DNA from: an uncultured Porphyromonadaceae bacterium
Lineage (GTDB): Bacteria; Bacteroidota; Bacteroidia; Bacteroidales; Muribaculaceae
Direction of reading: 5' to 3'
Assembly: GCA_947175645.1 (NCBI GenBank)
Contig: CAMWNP010000001.1
Coordinates: 124,001 to 188,000, forward strand
DNA: 64,000 nt
Part shown: in pieces, positions 26,487-34,540 of the stretch
How the letters are laid out: every line of letters starts with the position of its first letter
Position numbering within the stretch: the first letter of the stretch is position 1
The notes under the pieces: model-generated
Told to the model about the DNA's origin: nothing
Seen by the model: the letters and a program-made list of their open reading frames with translations, nothing else
The model's database searches: none
Made by a program: the position numbers and the translations under genes

Positions 26487-28661
26487 ATGAAGAACGAACT
26501 TATTGATGCTCTGAAATATCACTTTGGATTTGACAAATTCAAAGGCAACCAGGAAGCCATTATCCGCTCCCTTATGGAGGGGCATGATACATTTGTTCTG
26601 ATGCCTACAGGAGGTGGAAAATCATTGTGTTACCAACTTCCTGCACTGTTGATGCAGGGTACTGCAATAGTGATTTCACCTCTTATTGCCCTCATGAAGA
26701 ACCAGGTTGATGCAATGCGGAATTTCTCGGAAGATGATGGTGTCGCGCACTTCCTCAATTCTTCTTTGAACAAGTCTGCCATCGACATGGTGAAACACGA
26801 TGTTCTGGCCGGTAAGACAAAGTTGCTCTATGTCGCTCCCGAGTCATTGACGAAGGATGAAAACATTGAGTTCCTGTCTACTGTGGATATATCTTTCTAT
26901 GCCGTTGACGAGGCTCATTGTATATCGGAATGGGGACATGATTTTCGCCCGGAATACCGCCGGATCAGACCTATTATTAATGAAATTTCCCAGCATCCGG
27001 TAATAGCACTCACGGCAACCGCTACGCCAAAGGTGCAGCATGATATCCAGAAAAACCTTGGCATGTCTGATGCCCGTGTGTTCAAGTCATCCTTTAACCG
27101 GGAGAACCTTTATTACGAAGTACGGCCTAAAACCGCAAATGTTGATAAAGATATTGTAAGGTTTATCAAGAATAACCCTGGTAAATCCGGGATTATTTAC
27201 TGCCTCAGCAGAAAGAAAGTCGAGGAACTGGCGGAACTTCTTAAACTCAATAACATTGAGTCACTGCCTTATCACGCGGGTATGGATGGACAGCAACGTT
27301 CTGAAAATCAAGACGCCTTCCTTCTGGAAAAAGTGGATGTCATTGTGGCCACTATTGCATTCGGTATGGGTATCGACAAGCCTGATGTGAGATTCGTCAT
27401 ACATTATGACATGCCCAAATCTCTTGAAGGATATTATCAGGAGACTGGTCGTGCCGGACGTGACGGTGGTGAAGGACGCTGCCTTACATTCTACTCTTCA
27501 AAAGACCTTCAGAAAATGGAGAAATTCATGCAGAGCAAGCCACTGACCGAACAGGAAATTGGAAAGCAACTCCTTTTGGAAACGGCGAGTTATGCTGAAT
27601 CTTCTGTTTGCAGACGGAAAACTTTATTGCATTATTTCGGAGAATATTTTGATTCTGATAATTGTGGAAACTGCGACAACTGTTTAAATCCCAAAAAACA
27701 AGTGGAAGCGAAAGACGATTTATGTGCCGTTATCGAAACGGTGATTGCACTTAAAGAAAAATTCAAAGCAAATCATATTATTGACGTCATGCTTGGAAAA
27801 AATACCAATGATGTCAAATCTTATCATCACGATGAACTCGATGTGTTCGGATGCACCGACAAGGCTGATGACCGTTACCTTAATTCGGTTATTCGTCAGG
27901 CCGTCATTGCTGGCTACCTCGAACGTGATATAGAAAATTTCGGACTCATCAAACTGACGCCGGAAGGTGAAAAGTTCCTCAAATCACCTAAATCTTTCAA
28001 GATCGTTGAAGATAATGATTTTAACGAGGAAGAAGAACCGGTAATGGCTAAGTCAGGTGGCTCCTGTGCTGTTGATCCTGAATTGTACTCTATTTTAAAA
28101 GATCTGAGAAAAAAACAAGCCAAAAAACTTGGACTTCCCCCTTACGTCCTTTTCCAGGATCCTTCTCTTGAAGCGATGGCAACCACATATCCCATCACTA
28201 TGGAAGAACTGGCAACCATCCCCGGAGTTGGAACAGGCAAGGCTAAACGCTATGGCGAGGAGTTCCTTAAGGTTATAAAAACTCACGTTGAAGAAAATGA
28301 GATTGAACGTCCGGAGGATCTCCGTGTGCGCAGTTTCGCTAACAAAAGCAAACTGAAAATCTCAATTATTCAGTCAATCGACCGAAAAATTGCCCTTGAT
28401 GAGTTTGCTGAATCTAAAGGTCTTGAATTCAGCGAGTTACTCGACCAGATTGAGGCAATTGTGTATTCCGGAACAAAAATCAATATCAACTATTTTATTG
28501 ATGAAGTAATTGATGAGGACCGTCAGGAAGAAATTTTTGACTATTTCAGAGAAAGTGAAAGTGATGACATTAATGAAGCCATAAGTGAACTCGGGGCAGA
28601 TTGCACTGAGGATGAAATAAGACTTGTAAGAATAAAATTCATTTCTGAAATGGGCAATTGA
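26487..28661 (+). CDS. recQ: ATP-dependent DNA helicase RecQ
   Basis: 724 residues. Superfamily 2 motifs: Walker A TGGGKS (41-46), DEAH in VDEAHCISEWGHDFRPEY including the aromatic-rich loop, and motif VI QETGRAGRDG. The zinc-binding RQC region has cysteines in SSVCRRKT and CGNCDNC. An HRDC domain lies at about 540-610 (LGLPPYVLFQDPSLEAMATT). A further C-terminal helical extension of about 100 acidic residues is present. It unwinds forks and recombination intermediates. Downstream, the chaperone cassette starts after only 36 bp, with no terminator visible, so read-through is likely. Confidence 0.94.
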   Translation: MKNELIDALKYHFGFDKFKGNQEAIIRSLMEGHDTFVLMPTGGGKSLCYQLPALLMQGTAIVISPLIALMKNQVDAMRNFSEDDGVAHFLNSSLNKSAIDMVKHDVLAGKTKLLYVAPESLTKDENIEFLSTVDISFYAVDEAHCISEWGHDFRPEYRRIRPIINEISQHPVIALTATATPKVQHDIQKNLGMSDARVFKSSFNRENLYYEVRPKTANVDKDIVRFIKNNPGKSGIIYCLSRKKVEELAELLKLNNIESLPYHAGMDGQQRSENQDAFLLEKVDVIVATIAFGMGIDKPDVRFVIHYDMPKSLEGYYQETGRAGRDGGEGRCLTFYSSKDLQKMEKFMQSKPLTEQEIGKQLLLETASYAESSVCRRKTLLHYFGEYFDSDNCGNCDNCLNPKKQVEAKDDLCAVIETVIALKEKFKANHIIDVMLGKNTNDVKSYHHDELDVFGCTDKADDRYLNSVIRQAVIAGYLERDIENFGLIKLTPEGEKFLKSPKSFKIVEDNDFNEEEEPVMAKSGGSCAVDPELYSILKDLRKKQAKKLGLPPYVLFQDPSLEAMATTYPITMEELATIPGVGTGKAKRYGEEFLKVIKTHVEENEIERPEDLRVRSFANKSKLKISIIQSIDRKIALDEFAESKGLEFSELLDQIEAIVYSGTKININYFIDEVIDEDRQEEIFDYFRESESDDINEAISELGADCTEDEIRLVRIKFISEMGN

Positions 28662-28697: not shown

Positions 28698-29657
28698 ATG
28701 GCTCTCCCTCGCTTCATAATCTCCAATCCGTTCAGGATTTTAGGTATTCCTGCTAACAGTACGGAAAGGCAGATTAGTGCGTCGTTAGCCCGACTGCATG
28801 CTTATGCAAGGGTGGGGAAGTACTGTCCGAGTCCATTGGAATTCCCTGCCATATTCGGTCCTTTAAACAGGAATACTTCCATATTGGAGAGTTGTTCACG
28901 GTTAAGATATTCCACACCATTGCGTGTCAGAAACGCCATGGTGTGGTTTTCTGTTTCAACCGCTGCGGATTCATCTGCATTGGATTTTCTCAAAGAAGGG
29001 AACATAGATTCCGCAAGATATGTTCTTGACACGGCACCTCGGAATTACTCAGCGATTCTGAACTCCGCTGTGATAGATTTTTCTCATGATAACGTTGAAG
29101 ACGGAACGAAAAAAGTCATATCACTATTACAGGATGAGTATCTTCGGAAAGAATTCCTTTCTTCGCAGTCAGTAGAGGATGATTATATTGAATATGACCT
29201 CTTGCAGATGTTTATAGAACTCCTTTCGGAAACCTTCCCTTTTGATTCCGTTTCTTTATGGGTCAGAGAATCTGCTGAAGCAGTCGCTATCTTAAATTCA
29301 TTCCACTCACGGAAACTGACGAATATAATTGAAAACAGATTGTCTGTTGTGAAGTCATTCTCAGGTACCGACTATTCCTCATTGTTAAATTCCGTTGATG
29401 ATATTAAGTCATTGCTTGAAAGAACTGAGGAAATCTCTGTTGTGACGGATCATGCATCTTTACTTTTGCGAGACACCATTTCAAGAACTTTGCTTGAAAA
29501 GTCAATCTCTCTCTACAACTCAGGAGTAAACGTTTCAGAGAGCAGAATACTGTTACGTATAATCAAAGACGCATCCTTGATAACGCTAAACACAGCCCTG
29601 AAGATGCGTTGTAAAGAAAACTATTCACTGTTACTAAAAAATATATCCGGACAATGA
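28698..29657 (+). CDS. J-domain-like, HPD-less putative Hsp70 cochaperone
   Basis: 319 residues, soluble, unnamed family. The N-terminus NPFRILGIPANSTERQISAS followed by LARLHAY resembles J-domain helices I-II (xxxxLGIPxxASxxEIxxAYRxLA), but the HPD tripeptide that stimulates Hsp70 ATPase is absent: the position reads ARVGKYCPSP. The remainder is helical, with a TPR-like stretch (ALDFLKEGNIDSARYVLDTA). The gene overlaps the next by 4 bp (ATGA), and the third gene is an Hsp70 homologue, so a cochaperone or substrate-receptor role is inferred from context and partial similarity. It may be transcribed from recQ. Confidence 0.55.
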   Translation: MALPRFIISNPFRILGIPANSTERQISASLARLHAYARVGKYCPSPLEFPAIFGPLNRNTSILESCSRLRYSTPLRVRNAMVWFSVSTAADSSALDFLKEGNIDSARYVLDTAPRNYSAILNSAVIDFSHDNVEDGTKKVISLLQDEYLRKEFLSSQSVEDDYIEYDLLQMFIELLSETFPFDSVSLWVRESAEAVAILNSFHSRKLTNIIENRLSVVKSFSGTDYSSLLNSVDDIKSLLERTEEISVVTDHASLLLRDTISRTLLEKSISLYNSGVNVSESRILLRIIKDASLITLNTALKMRCKENYSLLLKNISGQ

Positions 29658-30154
29658 TTTACATTTTTGGATTTATCGGATTCTTCATTCTCATTGTTAT
29701 AGCCACGTTGTTATTCTGTTCTGTCAGGAGAAACAACCGCGATGCTCAAACCATACGTGATTTAAGGATTAGATTGTCAAAGGCCGAGGATGCGTGTAAA
29801 GATATAAACCATAATCTGAATCTGGCTGTATTGAACGAAATATCAAGAATAGAACAGAACCTGCGGTCGATGGATTTCACTACTAAAGGTGTTACAAACT
29901 TATCTAATCGCGTGCTTGCAATGAAAGCCATTTATTCCTCTATCGGGTATGAATTGCCTGAACTCATTGGTAAACCCTATGAGAACTCCGAAAATCACCG
30001 GATTACAATGAAGTTTGATGATTCTCTTGACCCGGGGAAGGCCATAGTGACAAAAATTATACGTCCGGCCATACTCTTTAATGGTGTAATGATTCAAAGT
30101 GCAAATATCATAGTATCATATAATGAAGACAAACAGGATAATTTACGGAATTGA
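29654..30154 (+). CDS. Membrane-anchored GrpE-like nucleotide exchange factor (putative)
   Basis: 166 residues. A TM helix (residues about 3-24) is followed by a coiled coil (about 28-85; TIRDLRIRLSKAEDACKDIN) and a C-terminal beta region, about 100-160. The latter, with GKPYENSENHRITMKF, then DPGKAIVTKIIRPAILFNGV and MIQSANIIVSY, mirrors the GrpE head (GEPFDPxxHEAV ... GTVxEVxxxGYxLxxRVLRPAxVxVS) in order and spacing, and GrpE also precedes its head with a long coiled coil. The TM anchor is not found in standard GrpE. The gene is wedged between J-like and Hsp70 genes with overlaps of 4 and 32 bp. Homology is by eye; a profile search should decide. Confidence 0.6.
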   Translation: MIYIFGFIGFFILIVIATLLFCSVRRNNRDAQTIRDLRIRLSKAEDACKDINHNLNLAVLNEISRIEQNLRSMDFTTKGVTNLSNRVLAMKAIYSSIGYELPELIGKPYENSENHRITMKFDDSLDPGKAIVTKIIRPAILFNGVMIQSANIIVSYNEDKQDNLRN

Positions 30155-32621
30155 TCTCGGTACCACAAACTCCGCTATCTCACGGATGATTAACGGAGTG
30201 CCCGTTACACTGAAAAGCGTTTTGCAACGGCCCGTTATACCCTCATGCGTGGCTGTTACCAGAAAAGGGAATGTTGTTGTGGGTGACAAAGCGCTTAATC
30301 TCCTTCAGCGTGACTATGCGAACTCCTTTGTTTCAGGAGAATTTTCATTTAACTCTTTTATTGAGTTCAAACGGCAGATGGGTAGGGATGTACGTTATTA
30401 TTCTTCAATCATCAACCGGTATTTCTCTCCTGAGGAACTTTCCGCAGAAGTGCTTATGGAACTGAAACGAATGGTTTTTGATGACGATGTCCGGGCAGCC
30501 GTAATTACTGTTCCTGCAATGTTTGACAATAACCAGAAGGATGCTACCGTAAGAGCAGCCAGAAAAGCCGGTTTTGACTATGTCGAACTCATCCAGGAGC
30601 CATTGGCGGCATCTGTTGCCTACGGTCTGACTGCTGACAAGGAAAACAAGTATTGGATAGTTTTTGACATGGGGGGAGGCACTTTTGATGTTGCTCTGAT
30701 GCGTATGCGGGACGGCATTGTCACTCCACTTGATACCACCGGTAGCAACCACTTGGGGGGTAAAGATATTGATGATGCCATTATTGACAATCTCATAATC
30801 CCGCATCTGAAGTCCGGGTACTGTCTGGATGATGTTTTGGCAAAACAGTCTCAGCAGTTCAAGGCTCTTTTGAAACATAAAGTGGAGGAATGTAAAATCG
30901 CATTATCAACAGTTGAGCAATTCGCCATTGAATCTGATACGGATGAAGATCTCGGGCTTGATGATAATGGAATTCCTGTGGAACTTAATTTTGTCTTATC
31001 AAGAAACGTTCTTGACAGAATACAGGAGCCGGTTTTCCGTAAGGCTATTGATCTTACAATGGCTATGCTGGAAAGAAACGGAATCGCTCCTTCCTCTATT
31101 CGTGACATTGTTCTTGTCGGTGGTCCCACTATGGCTCCTTTGTTACGTGAAATGCTGCTTTCCCATATACCGGCAGTAATTCGAAACGATGTTGATCCCA
31201 TGACTTGTGTCTCCCAAGGTGCCGCTATATACGCCTCCACGGTGAGTCTGCCCGATCACATACTCAATAAATCACGAACACCTGAAAAAATCCAACTTGA
31301 GGTTGTCGCTCGCGGCAACTCGGCAGAGATGTCGGAATTCGTATCTGTGAAAATCTTGCCAAAACTCTCTGATTTGCCACCTGAACCTTGGGTTACTGTG
31401 GAATTTTCGCGTAATGACGGAATGTGTACTACATCTCCCGTAAAAATTGATCAGTCAGGTGACGTTGTGGAACTCCCGCTAAAAAAAGATACGGTTAATA
31501 TCTTTTCTATAAGATGTTTCAACTGGCAGGGTAATCAGGTTGAATGTGAACCTTCGGAAATATCGGTTATTCAGGGCCTTGACGGTATTGCGGATGCGGT
31601 AATCCCGTTATCTTTGGGAATTGGTGTAAGCAATAACGATAATGATGAGGTATTCAAGGAAATACAGGGTTTGCAACGTGGAGCGCATCTTCCTGCTCAT
31701 GGTGTGGTCCTCGGCTTAAGGACACGTCAGGACATCTATCCTGCCGACTCTGATTCTGAAATACGTATTTCCTTGTATCAGAAAGAGATATATAAGGATA
31801 TGCTCACACGAACAATTCTATGCAATCACCTTTATGACATCATTTTAACCGGTGATGATTTGCCGGCAATGCTTCCGATGGGAAGTGAGGTAAACCTTCG
31901 GTTGCATGCTGATAAATCCGGCAGAATAGACAATTTCATTGTGGATATTCCCTTCCTTGATTATGAGATTGACGTCACTGACAGGGTTACATCTGCAACT
32001 AAAAGCGAAGTCCCCTTGCATATTGTTATCCACGAAGCATCAACAGCAATTAGTAAGGCGCGTCAACTCGGAAACAATCAATACGTTTCTGAGATTTCAT
32101 CTCTTGTCAACCATTTCCGCGATTGCGATAGTCGTGAGCAGAAGGATATCCTTTTTGAACAATTGTGTCAACTTAGTGAAAAGATTGACTTGGAATTCAA
32201 CAAGGATAAACTGAAGCGCGGCATAAAACGTCTTAAGGCGTTGTTCCATTCTTACTGCAAGGATGTTGAGAAGTATGGTCAGCCAAAGGATCATGCCGCT
32301 GTACCGCGAATCCGTGAAAAAATGGATAGCCTGATTGAATCAGCCGATTACAAGGCTGTCTCGGAATACACTGAACAACTCTGGCTGCTTGATTACCAAC
32401 TTGCGAAAATTGACTACTTTATCTCATGGATTTACAGTTGGAACTGCGATTTTGAAAACATGGGATGGCGCGATCCCGTCAGGGCTAAATTACTGCTGGA
32501 AAAGGCTATGTGTTTGATTGATGCTGAGAAGTCTGTCCGTGATCTGACCCCGGTTATTGAGGATCTCAAGTCTCTGCTCCCGGAATATCAGATACCTGTA
32601 AATGACATTCTTCAGGGTTGA
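30123..32621 (+). CDS. Hsp70 (DnaK-like) chaperone homologue, non-canonical
   Basis: 832 residues, about 200 more than DnaK. The ATPase domain (1-370) has phosphate-1 GIDLGTTNSA, the EPLAASVAYGL connect motif, phosphate-2 FDMGGGTFDVAL and adenosine motif IVLVGGPTMAPLLREM, so nucleotide binding should be intact. The canonical interdomain linker (VLLLDVTPLS) is missing: the chain continues STVSLPDHILNKSRTPEKIQ into a divergent beta-rich region and then long helices with an acidic/basic pattern to the C-terminus. The ATG at 30123 lies 32 bp inside the GrpE-like gene, which suggests coupled translation. Substrate specificity cannot be read from the sequence. Confidence 0.8.
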   Translation: MKTNRIIYGIDLGTTNSAISRMINGVPVTLKSVLQRPVIPSCVAVTRKGNVVVGDKALNLLQRDYANSFVSGEFSFNSFIEFKRQMGRDVRYYSSIINRYFSPEELSAEVLMELKRMVFDDDVRAAVITVPAMFDNNQKDATVRAARKAGFDYVELIQEPLAASVAYGLTADKENKYWIVFDMGGGTFDVALMRMRDGIVTPLDTTGSNHLGGKDIDDAIIDNLIIPHLKSGYCLDDVLAKQSQQFKALLKHKVEECKIALSTVEQFAIESDTDEDLGLDDNGIPVELNFVLSRNVLDRIQEPVFRKAIDLTMAMLERNGIAPSSIRDIVLVGGPTMAPLLREMLLSHIPAVIRNDVDPMTCVSQGAAIYASTVSLPDHILNKSRTPEKIQLEVVARGNSAEMSEFVSVKILPKLSDLPPEPWVTVEFSRNDGMCTTSPVKIDQSGDVVELPLKKDTVNIFSIRCFNWQGNQVECEPSEISVIQGLDGIADAVIPLSLGIGVSNNDNDEVFKEIQGLQRGAHLPAHGVVLGLRTRQDIYPADSDSEIRISLYQKEIYKDMLTRTILCNHLYDIILTGDDLPAMLPMGSEVNLRLHADKSGRIDNFIVDIPFLDYEIDVTDRVTSATKSEVPLHIVIHEASTAISKARQLGNNQYVSEISSLVNHFRDCDSREQKDILFEQLCQLSEKIDLEFNKDKLKRGIKRLKALFHSYCKDVEKYGQPKDHAAVPRIREKMDSLIESADYKAVSEYTEQLWLLDYQLAKIDYFISWIYSWNCDFENMGWRDPVRAKLLLEKAMCLIDAEKSVRDLTPVIEDLKSLLPEYQIPVNDILQG

Positions 32622-32836: not shown

Positions 32837-34540
32837 ATGGAAGTAAATAAAGAAGCAGAAAGTACCGAAAAGAAGAGCCTCAGTTTCGTGGAACAGATGG
32901 TTCTCGATGATCTCAAGGCTGGTAAGAACGGCGGACGCCTTAACACTCGTTTTCCGCCGGAACCTAACGGCTATCTCCATATCGGACATGCTAAGGCTAT
33001 TTGTATGGATTTCGGTGTGGCTGAAAAATTTGGAGGTACATGTAACCTCAGGTTCGATGATACAAACCCCGTGAAAGAAGATGTCGAATATGTCGACTCT
33101 ATTCGTGAGGACATTCATTGGTTAGGTTTTGACTGGGGTGACAGAGAGTATTATGCCTCGGACTATTTCCCTCAGTTATTTGAACTTGCTTGCCGTCTGA
33201 TAAAAGAGGGTAAAGCATACGTTGACGATCAGACTTCGGAACAGATTGCTGCTCAAAAAGGAACTCCTACCACTCCCGGTACTGAGAGCCCTTATCGAAA
33301 CCGCACTCCTGAAGAAAATCTTGACCTTTTCATTCGTATGAACAATGGTGAATTTGAGGAAGGGGCAAGAGTTCTTCGTGCAAAAATTGATATGGCTTCA
33401 TCCAACATGCACTTCCGCGACCCTATAATGTACCGTATCATAAAGACTCCGCATCACCGTACCGGTACCCAGTGGAAAGTTTATCCAATGTATGATTTCG
33501 CCCACGGACAAAGCGATTTCTTTGAGGGAGTAACTCACTCCATCTGTACTCTTGAGTTCGTCCCTCACCGTCCTCTCTATGACTATTTCGTTGATGAACT
33601 TGCAGATGAAACTTACCGTCCCCGACAGATTGAGTTCAATCGCCTGAACCTGACTTACACAGTGATGAGCAAGCGTAAACTGCTTCAACTTGTTAAGGAA
33701 GGGCTTGTTGAAGGATGGGATGACCCGCGTATGCCAACAATCTCCGGAATGCGTCGCCGTGGTTTCACACCTAAATCAATTCGTAATTTCATCGAGCGTA
33801 TCGGTTACACAAAATACGAGGCGTTGAACAGTGTTTCTCTCCTTGAACATGCTGTGCGTGAAGACCTTAATGCAATTGCAACGCGTGGAATGGCAGTTAT
33901 GAATCCGGTTAAAGTAGTCATTACAAATTATCCCGAAGATAAAACAGAAATGGTTGAGATGGAGAATAATCCTGAAGACCCATCTGCCGGAACTCATTCC
34001 ATGCCTTTCTCTCGTGAAATTTTCATTGAACGTGATGACTTCATGGAGAATCCACCCAAAAAATTCTTCAGGCTTGCACCCGATGGTGAAGTACGGTTGA
34101 AAGGGGCATATATCATCAAATGTACCGGCATAAAGAAAAATGACAACGGTGAGATTGAAGAAATATATTGTACTTACGACCCCGAAAGCCGTAGTGGTCT
34201 GCCGGGTGCGAATCGTAAGGTAAAAGGTACTCTTCACTGGGTTTCAGTGCCTCATGCTGTTGATGCCACGGCTCGTCTTTATGACCGACTTTTCAACGTT
34301 GAGAACCCTTCTGCTGAAACCGAACGTGACTTCCGCGAACTTCTCAATCCTGATTCTCTCAAGGTTGTTGAAGGAATCAAGGTTGAACCTTTCATTGCAG
34401 AAAATGCTATTCCGGGAGCAAAGTTTCAGTTCCAGCGTATTGGCTATTTTACTCCTGACCTCACGTCAACTCCTGAACATCTTATCTTTAACCGTACCAT
34501 CGGACTTAAAGACAGTTGGGAAAAGGAACAGAAAAAGTAA
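32837..34540 (+). CDS. glnS: Glutaminyl-tRNA synthetase
   Basis: 567 residues, class I synthetase. HIGH is residues 48-51 in PNGYLHIGHAKA and the KMSKS loop reads VMSKRK. The catalytic core contains FDDTNP and the C-terminal half has the two beta-barrel anticodon-binding domains. GlnRS charging avoids the transamidation route. Its length is close to E. coli GlnRS (554). It has its own promoter and a strong terminator. Nothing unusual. Confidence 0.95.
   Translation: MEVNKEAESTEKKSLSFVEQMVLDDLKAGKNGGRLNTRFPPEPNGYLHIGHAKAICMDFGVAEKFGGTCNLRFDDTNPVKEDVEYVDSIREDIHWLGFDWGDREYYASDYFPQLFELACRLIKEGKAYVDDQTSEQIAAQKGTPTTPGTESPYRNRTPEENLDLFIRMNNGEFEEGARVLRAKIDMASSNMHFRDPIMYRIIKTPHHRTGTQWKVYPMYDFAHGQSDFFEGVTHSICTLEFVPHRPLYDYFVDELADETYRPRQIEFNRLNLTYTVMSKRKLLQLVKEGLVEGWDDPRMPTISGMRRRGFTPKSIRNFIERIGYTKYEALNSVSLLEHAVREDLNAIATRGMAVMNPVKVVITNYPEDKTEMVEMENNPEDPSAGTHSMPFSREIFIERDDFMENPPKKFFRLAPDGEVRLKGAYIIKCTGIKKNDNGEIEEIYCTYDPESRSGLPGANRKVKGTLHWVSVPHAVDATARLYDRLFNVENPSAETERDFRELLNPDSLKVVEGIKVEPFIAENAIPGAKFQFQRIGYFTPDLTSTPEHLIFNRTIGLKDSWEKEQKK

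Follow-up and report, generated by a model that had tools for sequence, protein, structure and literature searches.

J proteins trigger Hsp70 via their HPD motif, and bacterial GrpE is treated as soluble. We have analysed a 64,000-nucleotide stretch (the window) of the gut-type Bacteroidota genome of an uncultured Porphyromonadaceae bacterium (GenBank assembly GCA_947175645.1, contig CAMWNP010000001.1, positions 124,001 to 188,000), in which three overlapping genes encode a J-like protein, a GrpE-like protein with a transmembrane (TM) helix and a divergent Hsp70. The operon probably encodes a dedicated remodelling machine that is built on Hsp70 and anchored at the inner membrane. Its computed basis consists of the folds, their conservation, gene adjacency, the TM segment and changed contact residues, from which we infer both the membrane tethering and the partnership of the J-like and GrpE-like proteins with Hsp70.

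The closest arrangement that we have found in the literature, as described in the passages dealing with it, combines HSP70, GrpE and DnaJ and recurs as a theme in GTPase conflict systems. According to those passages (Kaur et al. 2020, PMC7159879), ~14% of GAP1-N2 GTPase neighbourhoods contain HSP70 together with GrpE, and with DnaJ or TPR fusions; these systems are mainly from actinobacteria and firmicutes and are built around GTPase and FNIII proteins. The likeness lies in HSP70 being combined, within an operon of conflict type, with GrpE and with DnaJ or TPR fusions. However, the GAP1-N2 passages do not mention a membrane GrpE, HPD loss or a kinase-AAA+ fusion, TerB has 0 occurrences in the text of that paper, and the flanks of the window operon are, by eye, recQ and glnS. 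The CnuD/CnuCD proteins of CoCoNuT systems are Hsp70 fusions joined to McrBC, with Walker-like motifs reported as degenerate in the sections concerned (PMC11090510). As in our locus, an Hsp70-like nucleotide-binding domain and substrate-binding domain (NBD and SBD) are found in accessory operons, and some CoCoNuTs have TerY-P kinases. In contrast, the catalytic residues are kept here, and GrpE, DnaJ and TerB have 0 occurrences in the text of PMC11090510; none of the three window proteins matched McrBC, the neighbours being judged by eye. Finally, TerB is listed in the defence systems Shango and Bunzi, which is reminiscent of the TerB-like protein in the long form of our family (see below), but the terms Hsp70, DnaK and chaperone have 0 occurrences in the text of that paper (PMC10952713). 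No paper was recognised as describing this set in the open-access literature, subscription papers being mostly outside the search. The window set looks like a stripped version of an operon that is widespread in bacteria and apparently unstudied.

Like DnaK-DnaJ-GrpE, the locus encodes an Hsp70 ATPase domain, a J-like domain and a GrpE fold together. Unlike in that system, the GrpE-like protein carries a TM helix, and the J-like domain is joined to a helical body and has no HPD. The Hsp70 differs from DnaK by ~105 more residues where the linker would be, by a changed R167 and by a TIGR02350 score below cut-off. The open reading frames (ORFs) of the locus, all on the plus strand, span 28698-29657 (319 residues), 29654-30154 (166 residues) and 30123-32621 (832 residues). 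The first two genes overlap by 4 bp (29654-29657) and the last two by 32 bp (30123-30154), exactly as described in the original prediction, an earlier reading of the same DNA. The encoded features are:

28698..29657, plus strand: J-like protein, 319 residues, with an N-terminal J-like domain and an all-helical body (model), and no TM helix
28722..28943, plus strand: J-like domain, residues 9-82, without HPD and with a long loop between helices II and III (profile match to DnaJ, model helices, weak PDB profile matches)
29654..30154, plus strand: GrpE-like protein, 166 residues, with an N-terminal TM helix
29663..29719, plus strand: TM helix, residues 4-22, followed by RR, the C-terminal part being predicted as cytoplasmic (hydropathy 2.89, flank charges)
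29813..30127, plus strand: GrpE-like helices, residues 54-72 and 80-96, and beta head, about residues 98-158 (model, fold searches)
30123..32621, plus strand: Hsp70-like protein, 832 residues (PF00012, 8.3e-61 over residues 8-372)
30144..31238, plus strand: Hsp70 ATPase domain, residues 8-372, with E at the R167 equivalent and Q at the N170 equivalent
31248..31604, plus strand: stretch between the ATPase and SBD-like parts, residues 376-494, ~105 residues longer than its DnaK counterpart
31605..32618, plus strand: SBD-like part, from PLSLGI (residue 495) onwards, with a long C-terminal region behind it (weak DnaK alignment)

In a Foldseek search of the PDB, the 13 best matches of the AlphaFold model of the GrpE-like protein (predicted local distance difference test, pLDDT, 91) were all GrpE chains, and GrpE made up the top 6 entries of a VIA-align search with the same model. 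Based on the model, protein 2 has a GrpE fold over its helices and head. Sequence comparisons were less uniform. Pfam GrpE gave 0 families at E up to 1 with the window protein and matched, weakly, 20 of the 74 members of the GrpE-like alignment A6, and a PDB sequence search with the GrpE-like profile placed GrpE only at ranks 3 and 4 (E 0.55 and 0.66). Profile-profile comparison with GrpE yielded P 1.8e-4 with 15 sequences, P 0.0041 with alignment A6 (2 of 200 shuffles scoring higher), P 7e-4 with 83 sequences (without column shuffles) and P 1.5e-4 with 90 sequences (above 150/150 shuffles). Individually, 7 of 83 GrpE-like proteins exceeded 10 bits against the GrpE profile, compared with 1 of 1660 residue-shuffled sequences. 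A chance likeness was set aside on these shuffle controls. The profile comparisons varied; it was the fold search that decided the assignment. The TM segment (residues 4-22) is conspicuous by hydropathy (2.89) and lies, in the model, within a single long helix (residues 2-49). Both the GrpE-like nature of protein 2 and its TM helix had been foreseen from the sequence, and both are borne out.

Protein 3 matched Pfam HSP70 (PF00012) over residues 8-372 with an E-value of 8.3e-61 (206.4 bits against a cut-off of 20.6); with the NCBIfam DnaK equivalog TIGR02350 it scored 228.9 bits, below the cut-off of 822.55. The family was mapped residue by residue against the genome's own DnaK, with E. coli numbering. 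Of 89 distinct family sequences, 86-89 retain the equivalents of D8, T11, K70, E171, D194 and T199. For K70, E171, D194 and T199 the count was 88-89/89, and all four are present in the window Hsp70, in agreement with the intact ATPase proposed earlier. On the other side of the J contact, the equivalent of R167, the DnaK residue contacting the D of HPD, has changed to E in 86/89 sequences, and that of N170 to Q in all 89. The GAAI and PLSLGI motifs are separated by 129 residues in protein 3 versus 24 in the genome's DnaK (~105 extra), and no short hydrophobic linker of the VLLLD type was found between NBD and SBD, which also had been remarked on before. The SBD-like part is collinear with that of DnaK but weakly so (P 0.076), with a second HMMER stretch of 9.8 bits; judged from sequence, a functional peptide-binding domain is likely. 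The source genome (3.17 Mb, completeness 99.94) encodes full-length DnaK, GrpE and DnaJ elsewhere. Given these and a second Hsp70, the window set is an addition to the canonical machinery. This second, short Hsp70 (518 residues; C2:26229-27725, L005 1255-2811) is followed by two smaller ORFs, and no tie between it and the window operon was seen.

The profile of 88 J-like N-termini matched the DnaJ J-domain profile with a score of 30.1 (P 2.1e-5). Column shuffles reached at most 19.2 (200/200 below), and control profiles and reversed DnaJ scored 8.9-14.9, so that chance was set aside as an explanation. The model of the J-like protein (75 sequences, mean pLDDT 95.9) has N-terminal helices at residues 11-15, 23-38, 60-70 and 73-80, which is the order in a J domain. 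Of the 8 PDB sequences that a 24-sequence N-terminal profile retrieved at E<=10, 6 bear the name DnaJ/DNAJ, and all of these matched weakly (best E 0.36). The PDB search with the full J-like alignment gave nothing relevant, that with the window N-terminus alone gave no J domain, and Pfam DnaJ was not among the families listed for alignments A2 and A7. Structure searches with the full-length model returned helical repeats and other helical proteins, with no J domain listed, in a type of search where one domain can fill the match list. The HPD motif was present in 0/88 N-termini, and a conserved D, aligned to the D of HPD, in 83/88. A C-terminal hydrophobic segment was found in 68 of the 91 J-like proteins of at least 300 residues, the window protein having no TM helix. 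The earlier proposal of a J-like protein thus stands in its profile likeness but not as an ordinary J protein.

We have then looked at the wider family, in which counts out of 80 refer to the best 80 of 155 relatives from an assembled-contig scan. The loci carry Bacteroidota titles in 77/80 cases, the exceptions being L116 (Lachnospiraceae) and the two Clostridia loci L090 and L094. The contig of L116 is also that of L031, a locus assigned to the window's own family, and the tree puts L090 and L094 among Bacteroidota; for these reasons, the three titles were taken as mis-binning. The genes for the J-like protein, the GrpE-like protein and Hsp70 are consecutive in 68/80 loci, several others being cut by contig ends, which upholds a neighbourhood conserved outside this genome. 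In 83/83 loci with both genes (7 copies or near-copies excluded), the one for the GrpE-like protein immediately precedes the one for Hsp70. A minimal pair in L051 (7163-9970, G475) consists of a 96-residue GrpE-like protein directly before an 837-residue Hsp70; the 15 kb around it gave no match to the J-like and kinase profiles of the family.

The three-gene system of the original prediction is present here, but the wider system usually has two more genes, for a kinase-AAA+ fusion and a TerB-like protein, making five in all. The whole set is found in 53/80 loci and is consecutive, in the order J-like, GrpE-like, Hsp70, kinase-AAA+ and TerB-like, in 52/80; L134 has a second Hsp70. The fourth protein matched Pkinase (3.9e-32) and AAA (9e-37) in L027. 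Shango has an AAA ATPase partner. The fifth protein gave weak TerB matches, below cut-off, in the two tested (0.0024 and 0.004). All five family profiles matched the five proteins of a Haliscomenobacter plasmid, which are named CFI-box-CTERM protein, septum formation initiator, Hsp70 family protein, AAA family ATPase and TerB family. A DUF6804 protein, often just after TerB, accounts for 12 of the 96 flanking proteins (flanks of L126-L160) and is perhaps a sixth component.

The window appears to have lost the kinase-AAA+ gene, the TerB-like gene and the GrpE ectodomain. Loss rather than gain is suggested by the Hsp70 tree (quick, with SH-aLRT support only and long branches), where L026, which belongs to the same family and has all five genes, comes out as the sister of the window and two congeners. 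The six kinase-less loci within L117-L124 form a second group; the kinase-less set of 12 in the tree includes L051, plus L091 and L152, which keep TerB. The GrpE-like protein has 109-166 residues in the window group and 171 residues in the L117-L124 group. In its long form, this protein probably carries a signal peptide, and a stretch of it outside the cytoplasm resembles, by eye, a coiled coil. TerB is present in 57/60 loci with a long GrpE-like protein (at least 250 residues) and in 0/10 with a short one, and kinase-AAA+ in 58/60 versus 3/10. These counts cover 70 of 97 loci: 7 were dropped as copies or near-copies (L032 among them without proof) and the others for lack of a GrpE-like gene or of contig space. 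Related loci are not independent, so the association is a pattern rather than a test; as TerB and kinase-AAA+ track the long form, it suggests that the ectodomain works together with the kinase-TerB branch. In the three operon-bearing genomes of the window's genus, a TerB-like search, run without a positive control, found none, and the kinase-AAA+ query matched only the AAA part of proteins of 665-721 residues, probably FtsH, plus two weak matches in G121.

Two or more J-like genes occur in 13 loci, three of which belong to the L117-L124 group and have 2-4; in these (L117, L120 and L124, from Bacteroidales metagenome-assembled genomes) the J-like genes lie upstream of a single Hsp70, suggesting exchangeable adaptors. 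Three kinase-less loci also show an AIR-synthase-related gene after the Hsp70 gene (L117 10935-12113, L119 3228-4406, L120 11473-12639).

Overall, the specialised membrane-anchored chaperone interpretation of the original prediction is supported. In the mechanism that we propose, the GrpE-like head would face the cytoplasm and bind the Hsp70 ATPase domain, so that the GrpE-like protein would hold Hsp70 at the membrane and drive ADP release there. The J-like protein would serve as client adaptor and ATPase trigger and, given that both sides of the HPD-R167 contact have changed, might trigger Hsp70 by another contact. What the machine remodels could be a complex of proteins associated with the membrane. 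An event in the envelope may be sensed by the long form of the GrpE-like protein and relayed, via Hsp70 cycling, to the kinase-AAA+ and TerB-like partners; the window set is a putative reduced, chaperone-only form. An accessory stress or anti-phage role would fit better than general housekeeping. Taken further, and rather doubtfully, Hsp70 might act here as a transmembrane signalling device, in which the outer part of a membrane-spanning GrpE-fold protein senses an envelope or phage event and gates nucleotide exchange, with a rewired, HPD-independent J protein and a kinase-AAA+/TerB-like output. With HPD and R167 changed and a membrane-anchored GrpE fold, the family would offer a natural system for directly testing the need for the HPD contact, and would give a function to genes, both in gut bacteria and on plasmids, that go by the labels hypothetical protein, septum formation initiator or Hsp70 family protein.

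Plasmid searches extended the family to seven proteobacterial loci, in Shewanella, Vibrio, Sinorhizobium, Polaromonas, Aeromonas, Aminobacter and Pseudomonas, so that the J-like/GrpE-like/Hsp70 triad is common to Bacteroidota and plasmid-borne proteobacterial relatives. In all seven, a hypothetical protein of 114-123 residues lies directly before Hsp70 and matches the family GrpE-like profile (E 1.8e-9 to 5.8e-4, from very small databases); the Shewanella and Aeromonas proteins are identical. The GrpE profile alone gave 4.9e-5 to 0.22 with these small proteins, again in very small databases, and a profile of five of them scored 34.7 against GrpE, above 150/150 shuffles. J-like stretches of five loci, chosen by eye, scored 33.2 against the Bacteroidota J profile and 17.5 (P 0.011) against DnaJ, each above 60/60 shuffles; single-sequence matches were weak (best E 0.0041), and not significant for the Pseudomonas locus.

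The neighbours of these loci bear on the role of the machine. A function compatible with tethering, and one that we hold as a tentative but serious possibility, is that of an anti-phage or conflict system, with the triad as a chaperone-based sensor or threshold switch: disturbance of the envelope by a phage or plasmid, or a client protein made by one, would unleash the action of an effector. Such a sensor is plausible because phage sensing by a bNACHT protein is reported to require host DnaJ (PMC12169576). The five-gene operon of the Haliscomenobacter plasmid lies beside brxL and pglZ, and several proteobacterial triads are found beside Tn7-like transposition genes, near ZorA, and near an ATP-dependent endonuclease and UvrD helicase pair with a TaqI-like specificity gene. 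Three Bacteroidota loci have TIR-Sel1, NucC-like PD-DExK or NACHT-FGE genes inside or adjacent, and the patchy presence and fast divergence of the operon point the same way. Nevertheless, plasmid neighbours are biased to accessory functions anyway, no known effector was seen by eye beside the window operon, and many of the Bacteroidota flanks listed look ordinary, with no PADLOC family matching more than 2 of their 96 proteins. The viral contig scan gave no relative, which also counts against this role and led us to set aside a phage-borne operon. A defence role for the machine is thus plausible, and is suggested by the plasmid loci, not by the Bacteroidota flanks.

Within Bacteroidota, the Hsp70 C-terminal part was matched in 12/199 genomes of the window's family, and a phylum search with the GrpE-like profile found 9/395 genomes, including the window's own and three weak ones; the window J-like protein alone retrieved no relative in the contig scan. 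The operon is flanked by:

26487..28661, plus strand: recQ, upstream (named by eye from the sequence)
32837..34540, plus strand: glutaminyl-tRNA synthetase gene (glnS), downstream (named by eye from the sequence)

The clpP-clpX-recQ neighbourhood pointed out earlier is real here and in two operon-bearing congeners, but no indication was seen that the wider family shares it in general. A functional adjacency to clpPX and recQ was set aside, as it is not a feature of the loci inspected outside the genus. RecQ has a close match in 8/9 genus genomes. In four operon-less congeners (G078, G059, G108 and G038) recQ directly adjoins glnS, and in a fifth, G094, other genes lie there. Between the window and G014, identity is 94% for ClpP, 90% for ClpX, 93% for RecQ and 95% for GlnS, and 43%, 55% and 66% for the J-like, GrpE-like and Hsp70 proteins, respectively. 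From these sequences, the operon diverges fast, and at the recQ-glnS junction it has either been gained, been lost or given way to a distant copy.

Tethering would also suit an envelope biogenesis chaperone for an inner-membrane or exported client, with no immune part, which we consider somewhat unlikely. The recQ-glnS locus is the same in the window and one congener, and the recQ side in another; dN/dS (nonsynonymous to synonymous rate ratio) values of 0.25 (J-like, dS near saturation) and 0.31 (GrpE-like), from the 4 of 15 comparisons that were computable, hint at purifying selection; and the recurrent DUF6804 neighbour would suit such a role as well. Yet 187/199 family genomes and 6/9 genus genomes (some incomplete) gave no match, and relatives sit on plasmids of another phylum. 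The lost HPD, the changed R167 and linker and the published view of CnuD (CoCoNuT Hsp70) homologues in the sections covered (PMC11090510) would also fit J-like and GrpE-like folds acting as scaffolds without a working Hsp70 cycle, with Hsp70 as a slow ATP-dependent switch or nucleic-acid binder of the kind suggested for the CoCoNuT homologues, but this is improbable, since the K70, E171, D194 and T199 equivalents are so widely kept and the invariable adjacency of the GrpE-fold gene to Hsp70 argues for nucleotide cycling.

Two further proteins with GrpE-like tails were observed. In L048 (1-1280, G413), such a tail (E 9e-29) is part of a 426-residue ORF beside a kinase-like ORF, on a contig that, by eye, does not seem to belong to its genome. 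In L050 (6198-7682, G587), a 494-residue protein has a short GrpE-like tail (E 5.2e-4), and nearby, by eye, are apparent CRISPR genes and a MotA/OmpA-like pair resembling ZorAB.

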